Assembly: GCF_015169395.1 (NCBI RefSeq)
Contig: NZ_CP063458.1
Coordinates: 744,001 to 808,000 of the forward strand
DNA: 64,000 nt
DNA from: Humisphaera borealis
Lineage (GTDB): Bacteria > Planctomycetota > Phycisphaerae > Tepidisphaerales > Tepidisphaeraceae
Direction of reading: 5' to 3'
Position numbers and translations under genes: made by a program
The notes under the pieces: generated by a model
What the model saw: only the letters and a program-made list of their open reading frames with translations
What the model was told of the DNA's origin: nothing
Databases searched by the model: none
Shown: positions 7,018 through 56,903 of the stretch, one piece after another
Layout: each line of letters starts with the position of its first letter
How positions within the stretch are numbered: the stretch's first letter is position 1

Positions 7018-8034
7018 ATGCGATCGCTGTTCCGACTGCTTTGCCTGGGTGTCGTCACTGCACTGCTGGCCACCCCGATCTTCGCTGCTGACAAGAAGAA
7101 GATTGTCTTCATCTCCGGTGGCGCGAGCCACGGATTTCTCTCCCATGACCACCTGGCCGGCTGCAAGCTGCTGGCCGAACGGGTCAACAAGATTGAAGGC
7201 TACGAAGCGACCGTCTTCTACAAGACCTGGCCCGAGGCCAAAATTCTTGAACAGGCGGCGGCGATCATCATCTACGCCGACGGCGGGGCGGGTCACATCG
7301 CCCTACCGCACAAAGACGAGTTGGTCGCGCTGTCGAAGAAAGGCGTTGGCGTTGGCACGATTCACTACGCCGTCGAGGTACCCAAGGAAAAGGGCGGCCC
7401 CGAATGGCTTCAGTTCCAGGGCGGCTACTTCGAGACCTTCTATTCGGTCAATCCGCACTGGCTCGGCACCTTCACATCGTTGCCCAAGCACCCGGTCGCC
7501 AACGGTGTGCAGCCCTTCGAGACCCAGGACGAGTGGTATTACCACATGCGCTTCCGTGACGACATGAAGGGTGTCACGCCGATTCTGTCGGCCGTCCCGC
7601 CCGATGCCACCCGCTCGAAGAAGGATGAGGCCCACGGCGGCAACCCGCACGTCCGGGCGGACATCGGCAAGAATGTCGCCGAACACGTCGTCTGGGCCAG
7701 CGAGAATGACGGAGGCTCCCGCGGCTTCGGCTGCACCGGCGGGCACTTCCACAAGAATTGGGCGAACGACCAGTTCCGCAAAACCATCCTTAACGCGATC
7801 GTCTGGATCGCCAAGGGTGAAGTCCCCAGCGGTGGCATCGACAGCAAACGCCCCGACGTGGACGAGATGCTCGCCAATCGCGACCCGGACGCCCCCAAGG
7901 AAGCAGTTCCTGAAGGTTTCGATAAGGCCAAGTTCGCAGCCGAACTGGAACAGATCAACCGCCCGGTCGGCCGCCCGCAGGCGAGCCGTCCGCAGCCCGG
8001 CCAGGAGCTGCTTCACGAAGTGGCGGCGAAATAG
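7018..8034 (+). CDS. Exported ThuA-like domain protein
   Basis: A 338-residue protein with a signal peptide (about residues 1-22, TALLATPIFA). The mature part starts KKKIVFISGGASHGF, the typical first strand of the ThuA fold, a class I glutamine-amidotransferase-like domain named after trehalose utilisation protein ThuA. Further family features are AIIIYADGGAGH, the VGTIHYAVE strand and YYHMRFRDD. The enzymatic activity of ThuA proteins is not established; they are linked to sugar metabolism and often accompany Gfo/Idh/MocA oxidoreductases, as here. An AGGAGA ribosome site (7007-7012) decides the start. The next gene starts 16 bases after the stop, so the two are probably in one transcript. 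Confidence 0.9.
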   Translation: MRSLFRLLCLGVVTALLATPIFAADKKKIVFISGGASHGFLSHDHLAGCKLLAERVNKIEGYEATVFYKTWPEAKILEQAAAIIIYADGGAGHIALPHKDELVALSKKGVGVGTIHYAVEVPKEKGGPEWLQFQGGYFETFYSVNPHWLGTFTSLPKHPVANGVQPFETQDEWYYHMRFRDDMKGVTPILSAVPPDATRSKKDEAHGGNPHVRADIGKNVAEHVVWASENDGGSRGFGCTGGHFHKNWANDQFRKTILNAIVWIAKGEVPSGGIDSKRPDVDEMLANRDPDAPKEAVPEGFDKAKFAAELEQINRPVGRPQASRPQPGQELLHEVAAK

Positions 8035-8050
8035 TTCGAACCAAACCGAC

Positions 8051-9100
8051 GTGACCCTCCATCCGCCAAAAACACGCATCGCGCTCGTGGGTGCCGGCAA
8101 TTGGGGCTGGCAGCACGCCCGTGTCTTCTCGACGCGGGCGGACTGCCAGCTCGTGGCCGTCGCGAGCCGTTCGAAGGACCGCGCTGACGAGCGGGCGCGG
8201 CAGTTCGGCATTGCCCCGTACACTGACATCACGACCATGTGCCGCGAACAGTCGCCGGACCTGATTTGCGTCAGTCTCCCGAACCAGGCTCACTTTACGC
8301 CGACCCTGGAGGTCATCCGATCCGGATGCCCACTGTTCGTCGAAAAGCCATTCGTCTTTCACCTGACTGAGGCCGACACGCTGCTGGCCGAGGCAGCCAG
8401 CCGGAAGCTGTTCTTCGGCATCAACTTTAATCACCGCTACGCCAAGCCGATCGCATTGGCTCGACAGGCGATCGATGCGGGAAAGCTCGGCGACATTGTG
8501 TTCTGCCACTGGCGCTTTGGCGGGACCGGGGGAACTGACCACCCCTTCAACAACCTCATCGAGACGCAATGCCATGCGCTGGACATGCTTGAGTACCTTT
8601 GCGGTCCGATCGACTCGGTCATGGCTGAGATGACCGACAAAACAAAGCCGGGCGTCTATCGCACCCTCGTGCTCGCGCTGCACTTCCGGAATGGTGCCGT
8701 TGGCTCGCTCGTCGGGTCGTACGATTCGAGCTACACCTATCCCGGTACCCATCAGCTCGAAATCAACGGAACCCGCGGCCGGGTGCTGGTGGAAGAAACC
8801 GTCAAGCGGTTTACCTTCAGCGAAGCGGGTAACGAAACGTCACAGGTCTGGCAGGCTGGGTACTTTAACGACCGCGATCGTGACTTCTACCAGACTTTTG
8901 ACGCTCATGCCGCCGCGATGATTGACGCGCGTCGCAACGGCCAGGAGCCTCCCGTTCATGCACGCGCCGGCCGCCGGGCGTTGCTGTTGGCGATGGCCGC
9001 AATCGAATCGTTCAAGGGGGGCAAGCGCGTGGATGTCGAAACCGACTCCTGGGACGCATCGCCTCCAGCACCAATCCTGGCACCCCCGGCCAACCCTTAG
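8051..9100 (+). CDS. Gfo/Idh/MocA family oxidoreductase (cytoplasmic)
   Basis: A 349-residue protein if it starts at the GTG at 8051; the frame is open further upstream to 7571, but that part lies inside the ThuA gene in another frame and has no family similarity. The Rossmann loop IALVGAGNWG is at residues 10-19 and the EKP motif at 98-100 (FVEKPF). Unlike the two larger paralogues in the window it has no signal peptide. It would carry out an NAD(P)-dependent redox step on a sugar derivative. It sits between ThuA and a sulfatase, all on the same strand with gaps of 16 and 36 bp, suggesting one operon. Confidence 0.87.
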   Translation: MTLHPPKTRIALVGAGNWGWQHARVFSTRADCQLVAVASRSKDRADERARQFGIAPYTDITTMCREQSPDLICVSLPNQAHFTPTLEVIRSGCPLFVEKPFVFHLTEADTLLAEAASRKLFFGINFNHRYAKPIALARQAIDAGKLGDIVFCHWRFGGTGGTDHPFNNLIETQCHALDMLEYLCGPIDSVMAEMTDKTKPGVYRTLVLALHFRNGAVGSLVGSYDSSYTYPGTHQLEINGTRGRVLVEETVKRFTFSEAGNETSQVWQAGYFNDRDRDFYQTFDAHAAAMIDARRNGQEPPVHARAGRRALLLAMAAIESFKGGKRVDVETDSWDASPPAPILAPPANP

Positions 9101-9136
9101 TCTGTCCGATCCTCTAAATCCCTGGGTGAAAACGAA

Positions 9137-10519
9137 ATGCAATCCGTCGATCATCGCGGCATGACCGCCGTCATCCGTCTTCTGATCGCGGCGATTGTCG
9201 CGATGCAATTCACCTCGGCGATTCACGCGGCCGAAGCGGTCAAGCCGAACATCGTCATCATCCTGTCCGACGATCAGGGTCGAGGCGATTACTCGGCGTT
9301 TGGAACGAAAGACATTCGCACGCCGGGGATCGATCGCCTGTACGCCGAGGGAATGGGGTTCGACAACTTCTTTGCCAATTGCCCGGTCTGTTCGCCGACG
9401 CGCGCGGCTCTGATGTCCGGTTGCTATCCGGATCGGGTTGGCGTGCCGGGGGTCATTCGCGACATCAAGACCAACTCCTGGGGCTACCTGGCACAGCATG
9501 CGACGCTTTTGCCCAAGGTGTTGAAGACGGCGGGGTACCACTCGGCGATCGTCGGCAAGTGGCACCTGGGCCTGGAGCCGGAAAATCTTCCGCTGGCCCG
9601 CGGCTTCGACCACTTTCACGGCTTCCTCGACGACATGATGGACGACTACTACACGCACCTTCGCAACGGCCACAACTTCATGCGAAGGGACCTCAAGGAG
9701 ATCGACCCCGAGGGACATGCGACAGATCTGTTCACCCAGTGGGCCTGTGACTACATTCGCGAACGGGCCCAGGCGGGCGGACCGTTCCTTCTATACCTGG
9801 CGTATAACGCGCCCCACGACCCCGTTCAGCCTAAATCCGATTGGCTCGCGAAGGTAAAGACGCGCGAACCGAACATGCCTTCCAATCGTCAGAAACTGGT
9901 CGCCTTGATCGAACACATGGATGACGGGATCGGACAGGTACTGCGTACCCTCGACGAGACAAAGCTGGCGGCCAATACGATGGTGTGCTTCTCGTCCGAC
10001 AACGGTGGCATACTGGCCAACGGTGCCAACAACGGCCCGTATCGAGGCGGCAAGCAGATGACCTACGACGGCGGATTGCGGGTGCCCTTTGCCATCCGCT
10101 GGCCAGCCAGGATCAAACCCGGGACGACCTCCGCCCGCCGGGCACTGACCATGGACATCTACGCCACGGCTTGCGAGGTATCAGGTGTGACGCCGCCTAA
10201 AGACATCGACGGCGTCAGCTTCCTGCCGACGCTGCTCGGGCAGGAACAGCCAGACACCGATCGGGCCGAATACTTTGTCCGGCGTGAGGGCGGACCTCAG
10301 TATGGAGGAAAGACCATCGAGGCTCTTCGGATGGGCGACTGGAAGCTGGTACTGAACAGCCCCTTTGCACCCGCTGAACTCTTCAACGTGAAAGCCGACC
10401 CGGCTGAGACGACCGACCTTGCCTCCAGGGAGAAAAAGAAGTTCCTGGAACTGTCCGCCGAACTGCGACGGCACATTCAACGCGGCGGGCAGGTGCCGTG
10501 GCAGAAGTCGGAACAGTAG
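9137..10519 (+). CDS. Exported sulfatase (formylglycine-dependent)
   Basis: A 460-residue protein of the alkaline-phosphatase superfamily. The sulfatase signature CSPTR is at residues 85-89; Cys85 would be converted to formylglycine by a maturase encoded elsewhere. Metal-binding aspartates are in LSDDQG (45-46), and GKWHLG and SDNGG are the other conserved blocks. A hydrophobic signal segment (about 11-32, ending IHAAEA) indicates export. Start at 9137; an in-frame ATG at 9161 would give a tighter signal peptide. It follows ThuA and a Gfo/Idh/MocA gene, which suggests desulfation of a polysaccharide or other sulfate ester before sugar oxidation; the substrate is not identifiable. Confidence 0.92.
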   Translation: MQSVDHRGMTAVIRLLIAAIVAMQFTSAIHAAEAVKPNIVIILSDDQGRGDYSAFGTKDIRTPGIDRLYAEGMGFDNFFANCPVCSPTRAALMSGCYPDRVGVPGVIRDIKTNSWGYLAQHATLLPKVLKTAGYHSAIVGKWHLGLEPENLPLARGFDHFHGFLDDMMDDYYTHLRNGHNFMRRDLKEIDPEGHATDLFTQWACDYIRERAQAGGPFLLYLAYNAPHDPVQPKSDWLAKVKTREPNMPSNRQKLVALIEHMDDGIGQVLRTLDETKLAANTMVCFSSDNGGILANGANNGPYRGGKQMTYDGGLRVPFAIRWPARIKPGTTSARRALTMDIYATACEVSGVTPPKDIDGVSFLPTLLGQEQPDTDRAEYFVRREGGPQYGGKTIEALRMGDWKLVLNSPFAPAELFNVKADPAETTDLASREKKKFLELSAELRRHIQRGGQVPWQKSEQ

Positions 10520-10601
10520 AGCAGCACAACGAGGGACGCTGCGATTCGCGATGACTCCAGAATGGCCGAAGGCGAGCGGCTCTGCTGTCCTTCGGCAGCT
10601 A

Positions 10602-11018
10602 TCAGGTGGTCGATCCGTCCGTCCCCACGGCAGCCGGCACCTCGACGGCGGGTACTGACTCTGGGGCCGCAGGCGTGGCGACCTCGAGGGTCTCCACGGC
10701 GGCTGACTCGACCGCAGGGGCGACAACAGCCGCTACTTTGCTGGCGGGTTTGCTCTTCTTCCTCGGGGCGATCTTCTTGGGTGCCGGCTTCTTCGCTGCT
10801 GGCTTTTTGGACGCAGCCTTCGCGGCGGGCTTGGCCTTCTTCACCGGCGACTTGGACTTGGCCGCCGGCTTGGCGGATTTCTTCATCGACGGCTTTACTG
10901 CCGACTTCTTGGCCGGCTTGGCTGCCTTCCCGGTGGCTTTAGCCTTCGTCTTGGCCTTGGCCGCTGGCTTTGTACTGCCGACGCTTTTCTTTTTGACGCT
11001 GCTCTTTGCCTTTGCCAT
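10602..11018 (-). CDS. Histone H1-like Lys/Ala/Pro-rich protein
   Basis: A 138-residue protein of very biased composition. Residues 1-90 are almost only Lys, Ala, Pro and Ser in AKPAAK/KKPA-type repeats, like the C-terminal tail of histone H1 and bacterial HC1/HC2-type DNA-binding proteins. The last 45 residues are acidic and Val/Ala/Pro-rich with no lysine, so the protein is strongly bipolar. Likely role: nucleoid binding through charge. The start has AKAKSS directly after Met, and the upstream stretch contains a CGGGAGACG site. A longer forward-strand ORF overlaps it, but that is a mirror of the low-complexity sequence. Convergent with the sulfatase gene, 82 bp away. Confidence 0.8.
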   Translation of the reverse strand: MAKAKSSVKKKSVGSTKPAAKAKTKAKATGKAAKPAKKSAVKPSMKKSAKPAAKSKSPVKKAKPAAKAASKKPAAKKPAPKKIAPRKKSKPASKVAAVVAPAVESAAVETLEVATPAAPESVPAVEVPAAVGTDGSTT

Positions 11019-53020: not shown

Positions 53021-53377
53021 TCACGAACCGATCTTCGCCGCCGGGTCGACTTGCGTCTCGCCTTCGTCGGCTTTGACCTTGCCGTTGACGCTGGCAGAAC
53101 CGTCGATGTAGAGCCGGCCGCCGAGATTGATCGCGTCTTCGCCAATGGCACCACTGACGATGACCTTGGCGCCGTCTTTGACGATCAGTGAGCCGGTGAT
53201 ATTTCCGAACACATGCACCCGGCCGCCATGCAGAACGGTAAGGTCGCCGTAGATGGTGCCGCGGGAATAGAACTTCGACCCCTGGATCGCGGTGACGTTC
53301 CCGGCAATGGTTCCCCAGAGGGTAAATGACTGGTCGATGACCTGGTCGCCTACAAGCTGGCCGCGTTCTTCTCTCAT
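53021..53377 (-). CDS. Bactofilin-family polymer-forming protein
   Basis: A 118-residue protein made almost entirely of short beta-helix turns: LWGTIAGNVTAIQGSKFYSR, GTIYGDLTVLHGGRVHVFGN, ITGSLIVKDGAKVIVSGAI, then GEDAINLGGRLYIDG. This is the bactofilin/polymer-forming cytoskeletal (DUF583) pattern, in which valine/isoleucine-glycine turns stack into filaments near the membrane. Length and termini are normal. It is convergent with clpB (15-bp gap) and a member of a family that shapes cells in many planctomycetes, which lack FtsZ. Confidence 0.8.
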   Translation of the reverse strand: MREERGQLVGDQVIDQSFTLWGTIAGNVTAIQGSKFYSRGTIYGDLTVLHGGRVHVFGNITGSLIVKDGAKVIVSGAIGEDAINLGGRLYIDGSASVNGKVKADEGETQVDPAAKIGS

Positions 53378-55721: not shown

Positions 55722-56903
55722 ATGTCGGTCACCTACGAAACATTCGAGCGGTATCGGCAAAAGGGCATCGACGCCCGTCGCGCCGGGCAGTGGGATTCGG
55801 CCAGGATTTACCTCCTTGAAGCCGCACGGTCGATTCTTGACCTCTCCAAGACCGCCCAGGGCGAAGAGCTCAAACAAGCCCGCCGGGAGATGGCGCAGAA
55901 GCTGATGGACCTGGCCAAGGATTGCGAAAAAGCCAAGGCCGAGAACCGCCGGGTGACGCAGGTTGCCCGGCGCGGCGCACCCGGCAGCACGACCGGCGGG
56001 GCGTCCAAGGAATCGGGCGGCGGCGGTAACGGCGATGACGAAGAAAAGGACGCCAGCCAGTGGGTCGTAAAGGACAAACCCGACCTGAAGTTCGATGATG
56101 TCGCCGGCCTCGAGGCCGTCAAGCAGGACATCAAGCTCAAGATGATCTATCCGTTCGAGCACCCCGAACTGGCTCAGAAGTTCGGCATTCGCCCCGGTGG
56201 CGGCGTGCTGCTCTACGGCCCGCCCGGCACCGGCAAGACGATGCTCGCCAAGGCGACGGCGGGAGAGATCGATGCGACATTCTTCCTGATCTCCGCCGCC
56301 GACCTGCTGAGCAAATGGGTCGGCGAGGCCGAGCAGAACATCAAGAAGCTGTTCGAAGCCGCCGCCGGCGAGAAACGCAGCATCATCTTTATTGACGAAA
56401 TCGAATCGCTCGTCCCCGCCCGCCGCGACGACGGCGGATCGAGCGTGATGCAACGCGTCGTCCCACAGATTCTGCAGGGCGTGGAAGGCTTCGACCGCAA
56501 GAGCGGTCGGGCCGTGCTACTAATGGGAGCGACCAACGTCCCCTGGCAGCTAGACCCCGCGATGATGCGGCCGGGCCGATTCGACGAGAAGGTCTACATC
56601 CCGCTGCCCGATCCGCCGGCTCGGCGCAAGTTGCTCGAGATTTACCTCGGCAAGCGCCCGCTCGACCCGGCGGTGACGTTCGATGCGCTGGTGGAAAAGG
56701 TCGAGGGCTACAGCGGTGCCGACATCAAGTACATCTGCGATCGCGCGGCGGTGATCCCATTCCTGTCCGCCGTCGCCACCGGAACGGACGGACTGATCAC
56801 GATGGACATTATTGAGGACGTGATCAGGGAAGCGCCGAGGTCAGTAACGAAGGAGATGATCAAGCGGTTCGACGAGTGGGGACGGCAGCAGATTTCAGGG
56901 TGA
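55722..56903 (+). CDS. Vps4/katanin-like AAA ATPase with N-terminal MIT-like domain
   Basis: A 393-residue protein. Residues 5-75 fit a three-helix MIT domain (ETFERYRQKGIDARRAGQWDSA ... REMAQKLMDLAKDCEKAK); a Gly-rich linker follows (85-110). The AAA core starts LKFDDVAGLEAVKQDI as in Vps4, with Walker A GPPGTGKT (166-173), pore-loop SKWVGEAEQ (Trp199), Walker B IIFIDEIESL (221-230) and arginine finger RPGRFDEK. The C-terminus (PRSVTKEMIKRFDEWGRQQI) resembles the closing helix of Vps4. In eukaryotes and archaea this architecture disassembles ESCRT-III filaments; whether it does so here is unknown. Members exist in planctomycetes, making this a gene to follow. Confidence 0.9.
   Translation: MSVTYETFERYRQKGIDARRAGQWDSARIYLLEAARSILDLSKTAQGEELKQARREMAQKLMDLAKDCEKAKAENRRVTQVARRGAPGSTTGGASKESGGGGNGDDEEKDASQWVVKDKPDLKFDDVAGLEAVKQDIKLKMIYPFEHPELAQKFGIRPGGGVLLYGPPGTGKTMLAKATAGEIDATFFLISAADLLSKWVGEAEQNIKKLFEAAAGEKRSIIFIDEIESLVPARRDDGGSSVMQRVVPQILQGVEGFDRKSGRAVLLMGATNVPWQLDPAMMRPGRFDEKVYIPLPDPPARRKLLEIYLGKRPLDPAVTFDALVEKVEGYSGADIKYICDRAAVIPFLSAVATGTDGLITMDIIEDVIREAPRSVTKEMIKRFDEWGRQQISG

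Follow-up and report, generated by a model that had tools for sequence, protein, structure and literature searches.

The closest described counterparts of the gene considered here are the archaeal CdvC/Vps4 ATPases with their partner CdvB (in Sulfolobales and Asgard archaea). In these, an MIT-like domain, a linker, a single AAA domain lacking the eukaryotic beta insert, and a closing helix follow one another, and an ESCRT-III-like gene lies directly upstream with a winged-helix gene nearby. The gene, which we call V4A, encodes a Vps4-like AAA ATPase and lies within a 64,000-nucleotide stretch of the planctomycete Humisphaera borealis (hereafter, the window: C1:744001-808000 of a genome that is one contig of 7.19 Mb and 98.4% complete). 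V4A resembles the archaeal ATPases in predicted architecture, and its relatives share the gene neighbourhood of the archaeal pair, but there are three differences: the host is a bacterium; the AAA domain of V4A belongs, in the best tree, to a sister lineage; and the planctomycete operon adds a second ATPase together with SPFH/propeller, transmembrane and kinase genes.

Archaeal Meth_adaptin ESCRT systems likewise place Vps4, ESCRT-III, winged-helix and SPFH proteins in one locus (Makarova 2024, PMC10936438), whereas neither an adaptin nor a GOLD domain was identified in the planctomycete system. Among bacteria, PspA and Vipp1 are membrane proteins of the ESCRT-III superfamily and sometimes have Band-7 and AAA partners (PMC11237479). 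The planctomycete protein E3c differs from these in that its members match Snf7 and not PspA_IM30, in that its partner ATPase has an MIT-like domain, and in that no PspA was found in the H. borealis genome. Ravi et al. 2024 (PMC11237479) also report Vps4-like ATPases in several bacterial lineages and some bacterial Snf7-clade genes grouped with AAA genes; unlike the planctomycete operon, however, their Vps4-like cases have a TPR+6TM gene in place of snf7, and the main text neither mentions planctomycetes nor describes this multi-gene operon. Finally, bacterial TPR-AAA proteins (Streptomyces WP_037790149.1 and planctomycete paralogues) have, by tree, the AAA domain closest to that of V4A, but they carry a TPR array instead of a three-helix domain, end in a different C-terminus, and show no link to ESCRT-III that we could see. 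The open full-text literature, searched to the exclusion of subscription papers and most preprints, yielded no account of the planctomycete operon, and we regard its novelty as an ESCRT-III/Vps4-like system as provisional.

We propose that V4A works as a hexameric AAA translocase in the remodelling of ESCRT-III-like membrane filaments, and we give this reading a probability of roughly 0.7. Because V4A is nearly confined to planctomycetes with E3c, often as its direct neighbour, the carriers probably possess a machine for membrane remodelling of a sort normally attributed to archaea and eukaryotes alone.

Results

A scan of named genomes returned 25 V4A loci, all of them planctomycete and mostly titled Phycisphaerae or Phycisphaerales. 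Within a sample of 294 planctomycete genomes (V4A orthologue threshold, E < 1e-78), V4A was present in 35, the related ATPase gene V4B in 44 and E3c in 54. E3c accompanies V4A in 32 of these 35 genomes (Fisher p 6e-25, a value not corrected for kinship), the two occur together in 19 families, and 52 of the 54 E3c genomes, spread over 23 families, have V4A or V4B; the exceptions are mostly incomplete assemblies. When genomes were chosen by V4A alone, 15 of 17 contained E3c. V4A is almost restricted to planctomycetes that also carry E3c, with sampling beyond Planctomycetota being thin.

All-against-all comparison of neighbouring open reading frames recovered a conserved, one-strand operon around V4A in relatives. 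At its fullest, the order is a winged-helix-like protein (wH), E3a, E3b, V4B, E3c, V4A, an SPFH/propeller protein and a transmembrane protein, often accompanied by Ser/Thr kinase-like genes. In 27 loci, E3c is the gene immediately ahead of V4A, and gene order is consistent across 47 loci that each hold more than one operon module. In some Phycisphaerae, V4B is absent and the wH protein is fused to E3a. Variants within the E3a (c19/c6C; hhalign, 96.7%) and E3b (c10/c14; hhalign, 95.6%) families are related, and in the SPFH/propeller protein the propeller part is clearly recognised and the SPFH part has weak support, Band_7 matching 2 of 11 members (best 4e-4).

Three features of these loci are recorded separately. 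The wH+E3a fusion (L084:7486-8997 and L049-L059) is reminiscent of CHMP7 of eukaryotes, although support for its winged helix is weak. One family, f29 (L117-L123), has V4B and E3c, separated by a gap, and no match to V4A at the threshold applied. In many loci, the operon is followed by genes for Ser/Thr kinase-like proteins that carry a membrane part at the C-terminus (L067:2836-5798 on the minus strand, L073, L081 and others).

The V4A frame runs uninterrupted from ATG to stop, and stop codons interrupt the minus strand opposite it. The gene and its parts are:

55722..56903, plus strand: V4A, Vps4-like AAA ATPase gene, 393 residues
55722..55946, plus strand: N-terminal MIT-like three-helix domain, residues 1-75 (AlphaFold2 helices; weak whole-domain profile matches to Chs1 and VPS4B MIT chains)
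55947..56054, plus strand: predicted disordered linker, residues 76-111 (predicted local distance difference test score, pLDDT, < 50)
56055..56840, plus strand: AAA domain, large and small subdomains, residues 112-373 (Pfam AAA and AAA_lid_3)
56217..56240, plus strand: Walker A, GPPGTGKT, residues 166-173 (sequence and orthologue alignment)
56313..56321, plus strand: pore loop 1, Lys-Trp-Val, residues 198-200 (invariant in 25 orthologues)
56382..56399, plus strand: Walker B, IIFIDE, residues 221-226 (sequence and orthologue alignment)
56526..56537, plus strand: sensor 1, GATN, residues 269-272 (sequence and orthologue alignment)
56568..56585, plus strand: RPGRFD with candidate arginine fingers, residues 283-288 (sequence and orthologue alignment)
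56835..56900, plus strand: C-terminal closing helix, Vps4_C-like, PRSVTKEMIKRFDEW... (predicted helix 377-392, AlphaFold2)

All of the expected motifs (KFDDVAGLE, GPPGTGKT, SKWVGEAEQ, IIFIDE, GATN, RPGRFD and, in the closing helix, RFDEW) are found and are mostly invariant in an alignment of the 25 orthologues. In these, an N-terminal region of ~75 residues is retained along with the AAA part, and the Gly/Asp-rich linker between the two varies; pore loop 1 occupies the position of SKW in CdvC and yeast Vps4. Pfam recognises AAA (134 bits) and AAA_lid_3 in the single sequence. Of the NCBIfam models, archaeal CdvC scores highest (230 bits; residues 27-388 against model positions 11-366 of 370), a score well under the CdvC equivalog cut-off of 650. 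The top matches in a PDB sequence search are two-domain Cdc48-type proteins, and the yeast Vps4 match spans residues 13 to 347. An AlphaFold2 model consists of N-terminal helices, a disordered linker and an AAA fold, and compares with Metallosphaera sedula Vps4 at a VIA Z of 29.5, tied with p97 D2, yeast Vps4, spastin and katanin; such searches with the full model are dominated by AAA domains and do not address the N-terminal domain. The model has no strands of three or more residues after residue 292 that would correspond to the eukaryotic Vps4 beta-domain insert, an insert that archaeal CdvC likewise lacks. Pfam Vps4_C scores 13.2 bits on V4A of the window (cut-off 21.3); in a scan of nine V4A proteins it matched every C-terminus, with five scores above the cut-off. 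A preliminary description of this gene had proposed the order MIT-like helices, Vps4-type KFDDVAGLE entry, SKWVGEAEQ pore loop and closing RFDEW helix, and that order is supported. The reading frame is intact, the motifs are present, and three N-terminal helices and the closing helix are predicted. As to a defence function, the PADLOC IetA match (125 bits) is confined to the AAA part, and we set that reading aside.

The identity of the N-terminal domain is less straightforward. Its predicted helices (residues 5-20, 24-43 and 48-83) have pLDDT mostly above 90 (blocks of 84-96 over residues 1-70). Among 27 V4A N-terminal domains, Pfam MIT produced one match (E 0.17) and TPR_2 weak matches in 17. 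The best matches to a profile of these 27 domains are consensus TPR proteins, over about one hairpin (residues 16-39 or slightly more), and its natural whole-domain matches are the MIT-type domain of Chs1 (0.0019) and the MIT domain of VPS4B/SKD1 (0.16-0.21). Because MIT, as a three-helix bundle, resembles TPR, mixed matches to the two are to be expected, though they are no proof. Residues 1-75 are likely to form an MIT domain, a conclusion backed by predicted shape and not settled by sequence. The MIT assignment of the preliminary description therefore survives as a predicted three-helix domain but not as a Pfam identification, with single-hairpin TPR matches being the stronger ones. Two variants of this region were also seen: A subgroup of V4A proteins (L007, L016, L017, L020, L024, L027) has a divergent N-terminal helical domain (SRAESYK.SFDRYL...) with an unchanged AAA domain, and in a 518-residue frame (L032; G006:C101) the first ~110 residues resemble at least two tandem MIT-like three-helix repeats ahead of the AAA domain.

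To place the AAA domain, we used a tree rooted on FtsH that included yeast Vps4, fly spastin, three CdvC, Cdc48 D1 and D2, PAN, V4A, V4B and TPR-AAA (the CdvC, yeast Vps4, PAN and fly spastin sequences being taken from PDB records). V4A and the bacterial TPR-AAA family form one clade (99/96). Its sister group (100/96) unites yeast Vps4, fly spastin, the three CdvC and V4B (95/84). Cdc48 D1, Cdc48 D2, PAN and FtsH all lie outside the joint clade of V4A, TPR-AAA and Vps4 (100/96), and the tree thereby excludes an FtsH, PAN or Cdc48 identity for the V4A domain. By the approximately unbiased test, a sole joint clade of V4A and V4B was rejected (p-AU 0.0098), and a position of V4A inside the Vps4 clade without TPR-AAA was not (p-AU 0.143). 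V4B, the second ATPase of the operon, falls within the Vps4/spastin/CdvC clade, and all 14 V4B proteins match Vps4_C (best 3.2e-7). The earlier label of Vps4-type AAA is correct in setting V4A apart from FtsH, PAN and Cdc48, and probably too narrow in that the best tree places V4A beside the Vps4/spastin/CdvC clade and not within it.

This position raises the question of whether V4A is instead a general bacterial AAA unfoldase with a TPR-like adaptor, acting on other substrates and tied to E3c by regulation or accident. Its sister group is, after all, a TPR-AAA family found in Streptomyces and many planctomycetes, and the weak TPR_2 matches in the V4A N-terminal domains fit such an adaptor. 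We consider this unlikely, as the V4A N-terminus is one hairpin plus a long third helix, unlike the TPR array of the sister group; the TPR-AAA C-terminus differs from that of V4A; and V4A and E3c show near one-to-one co-occurrence as well as adjacency. A general bacterial AAA protein with no MIT-like fold, which the preliminary description had named as the outcome contrary to its reading, is found by half at most: The sister group is TPR-AAA, yet a three-helix fold is predicted. TPR-AAA is itself a widespread and little-described family, and includes G000 C1:5168610-5169398 (L002, L085) and Streptomyces L141 and L145.

E3c is a protein of ~200 residues. Pfam Snf7 picks up 11 of 17 members (best 3.7e-6), with no PspA_IM30 match reported among the 17, and the one single-sequence Snf7 score shown is 20.6 bits against a cut-off of 27.3. 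When an E3c profile was compared with 177,635 PDB sequences, eight matched at E <= 10, seven of them CHMP3, SNF7 or CHMP2A; the best reached 0.0054, and the CHMP3 alignment covers residues 13-167. Profiles of E3a and E3b, which have a similar composition, lack this pattern, so composition alone is a poor explanation. The AlphaFold2 model predicts helices at 7-49, 52-110, 115-153 and 162-201, an order that fits the hairpin, alpha4 and C-terminal helix of ESCRT-III. In Foldseek, the first ten PDB matches of the model belong without exception to ESCRT-III (Loki CHMP4-7, CHMP2A, CHMP3, CdvB, CdvB2 and CHMP1B-IST1 among them), followed by a BAR-domain chain and then by Asgard ESCRT-IIIB and other ESCRT-III, Vipp1 and others. 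Since the fold scores are equivocal, the sequence evidence weighs more, and judged by sequence E3c resembles ESCRT-III.

Could this resemblance be fortuitous, with E3c an unrelated coiled-coil and the operon building a different membrane complex, linked to SPFH, for which the two AAA proteins work? Most E3c matches do lie under Pfam cut-offs, E3a and E3b are not recognised as ESCRT-III, and BAR, bMERB and other helical proteins nearly equal the ESCRT-III matches by Z. Against a chance origin, the PDB profile matches are almost only to ESCRT-III and are not reproduced by E3a or E3b, the CHMP3 match extends over residues 13 to 167, the ten leading Foldseek matches agree, and the partner ATPase V4B lies within the Vps4 clade. 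We therefore view this explanation as rather unlikely.

In H. borealis itself, the operon genes are dispersed over three or more loci. Apart from V4A, these are:

C1:5687041-5687631: E3c (240.7 bits), with E3b and a wH+E3a fusion ahead of it on the same strand; in locus coordinates (L084), 7486-8997 (wH+E3a fusion), 9103-9717 and 10041-10640
C1:2957406-2958992: SPFH-propeller homologue (8.8e-37)

Because all parts sit on one contig, contamination is no explanation. V4B was not found in this genome, nor was any match to the FtsZ/tubulin family. The preliminary description had supposed that the ATPase could have a real filament target and had pointed to PspA/Vipp1. The first idea gains from the ESCRT-III-like E3c, which adjoins V4A in relatives and is present elsewhere in this genome; the second does not hold, as PspA_IM30 (PF04012) has no match in the genome even at E <= 10, in a search that passes its cut-off in 9 of 14 controls. 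Pfam MIT gave no useful match in this genome at a loose limit at which 12 of 14 controls match, and the Pfam Snf7 search was uninformative, with no control, Sulfolobus included, passing the cut-off.

Discussion

The architecture, linkage, co-occurrence, E3c-ESCRT-III similarity and presence of the parts in the H. borealis genome were computed; we infer the hexamer, the binding and threading, filament formation, membrane action and the cellular role of V4A and E3c. In the mechanism that we envisage, the MIT-like domain of V4A would dock on the C-terminal tails of E3c, its pore loops (Lys198-Trp199-Val200) would pull E3c subunits through the ring, and this threading would disassemble or turn over an E3c polymer at the inner membrane. 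In relatives, V4A is the second of two such ATPases encoded by the operon, alongside three ESCRT-III-like or coiled-coil proteins and the wH-like, SPFH/propeller, membrane and kinase gene products. By analogy with archaeal Meth_adaptin systems (PMC10936438), the SPFH-like partner suggests a membrane scaffold. A leucine-rich C-terminal helix occurs in E3c sequence A1.

Several observations weigh against this reading. Pfam MIT finds no match in the single V4A sequence, and a thin profile comparison by hhalign gives the N-terminal domain 34.5% against MIT. In the best tree, the AAA domain of V4A appears as sister to the Vps4/CdvC/spastin clade, not inside it, and in its own genome V4A is unlinked to E3c and the other system genes. 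The E3c model rests on eight close sequences (mean pLDDT 74), its Foldseek E-values are modest (0.05-0.4), and its best VIA-align Z of 9.5 is within the chance range for helical bundles, with unrelated helical proteins close behind. No conserved canonical MIT-interacting motif (MIM1) was demonstrated in E3c. Neither E3a nor E3b has a convincing ESCRT-III match in Pfam or PDB profiles (E3a has two weak SNF7 rows), and as ESCRT-III proteins they are unsupported by these searches. We would give only even odds to a complete planctomycete ESCRT-like system in which a wH recruiter and an SPFH scaffold accompany three paralogues of ESCRT-III and a pair of MIT-AAA ATPases.

As to the process served, one version of the filament-remodelling reading would have V4A and E3c drive division in planctomycetes that lack FtsZ, much as CdvB/CdvC do in archaea. 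This is attractive because Phycisphaerae divide without FtsZ, in a manner like binary fission and with an unknown driver (PMC6952346), and the H. borealis genome fits in having no FtsZ/tubulin match. However, E3c is absent from 240 of the 294 planctomycetes and from the other same-class genomes listed, though the whole phylum lacks FtsZ (PMC6952346). Because E3c is missing from most of this phylum, a general division role is unlikely, and we hold this version to be quite improbable, though V4A and E3c may serve division in the carriers. For the same reason, membrane repair, or remodelling and vesicle work, is in general the more likely role of V4A and E3c.

A linked ATPase/ESCRT-III pair across some 20 planctomycete families would change the account that restricts the pairing to archaea and eukaryotes, and its dating. 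The system may also show how an ATPase came to be recruited to ESCRT-III on two occasions, because V4B lies inside the Vps4 clade and V4A, in the best tree, outside it. For experiments, it offers a membrane-remodelling candidate in a phylum that lacks FtsZ and whose membranes are unusual; in H. borealis, PspA is missing as well.

Within the window, the genes flanking V4A were read by eye as peptidase-like and RecQ-like helicase, and no ESCRT-related gene is among them. Nearby, 53021-53377 on the minus strand encodes a small protein that is, by eye, bactofilin-like.
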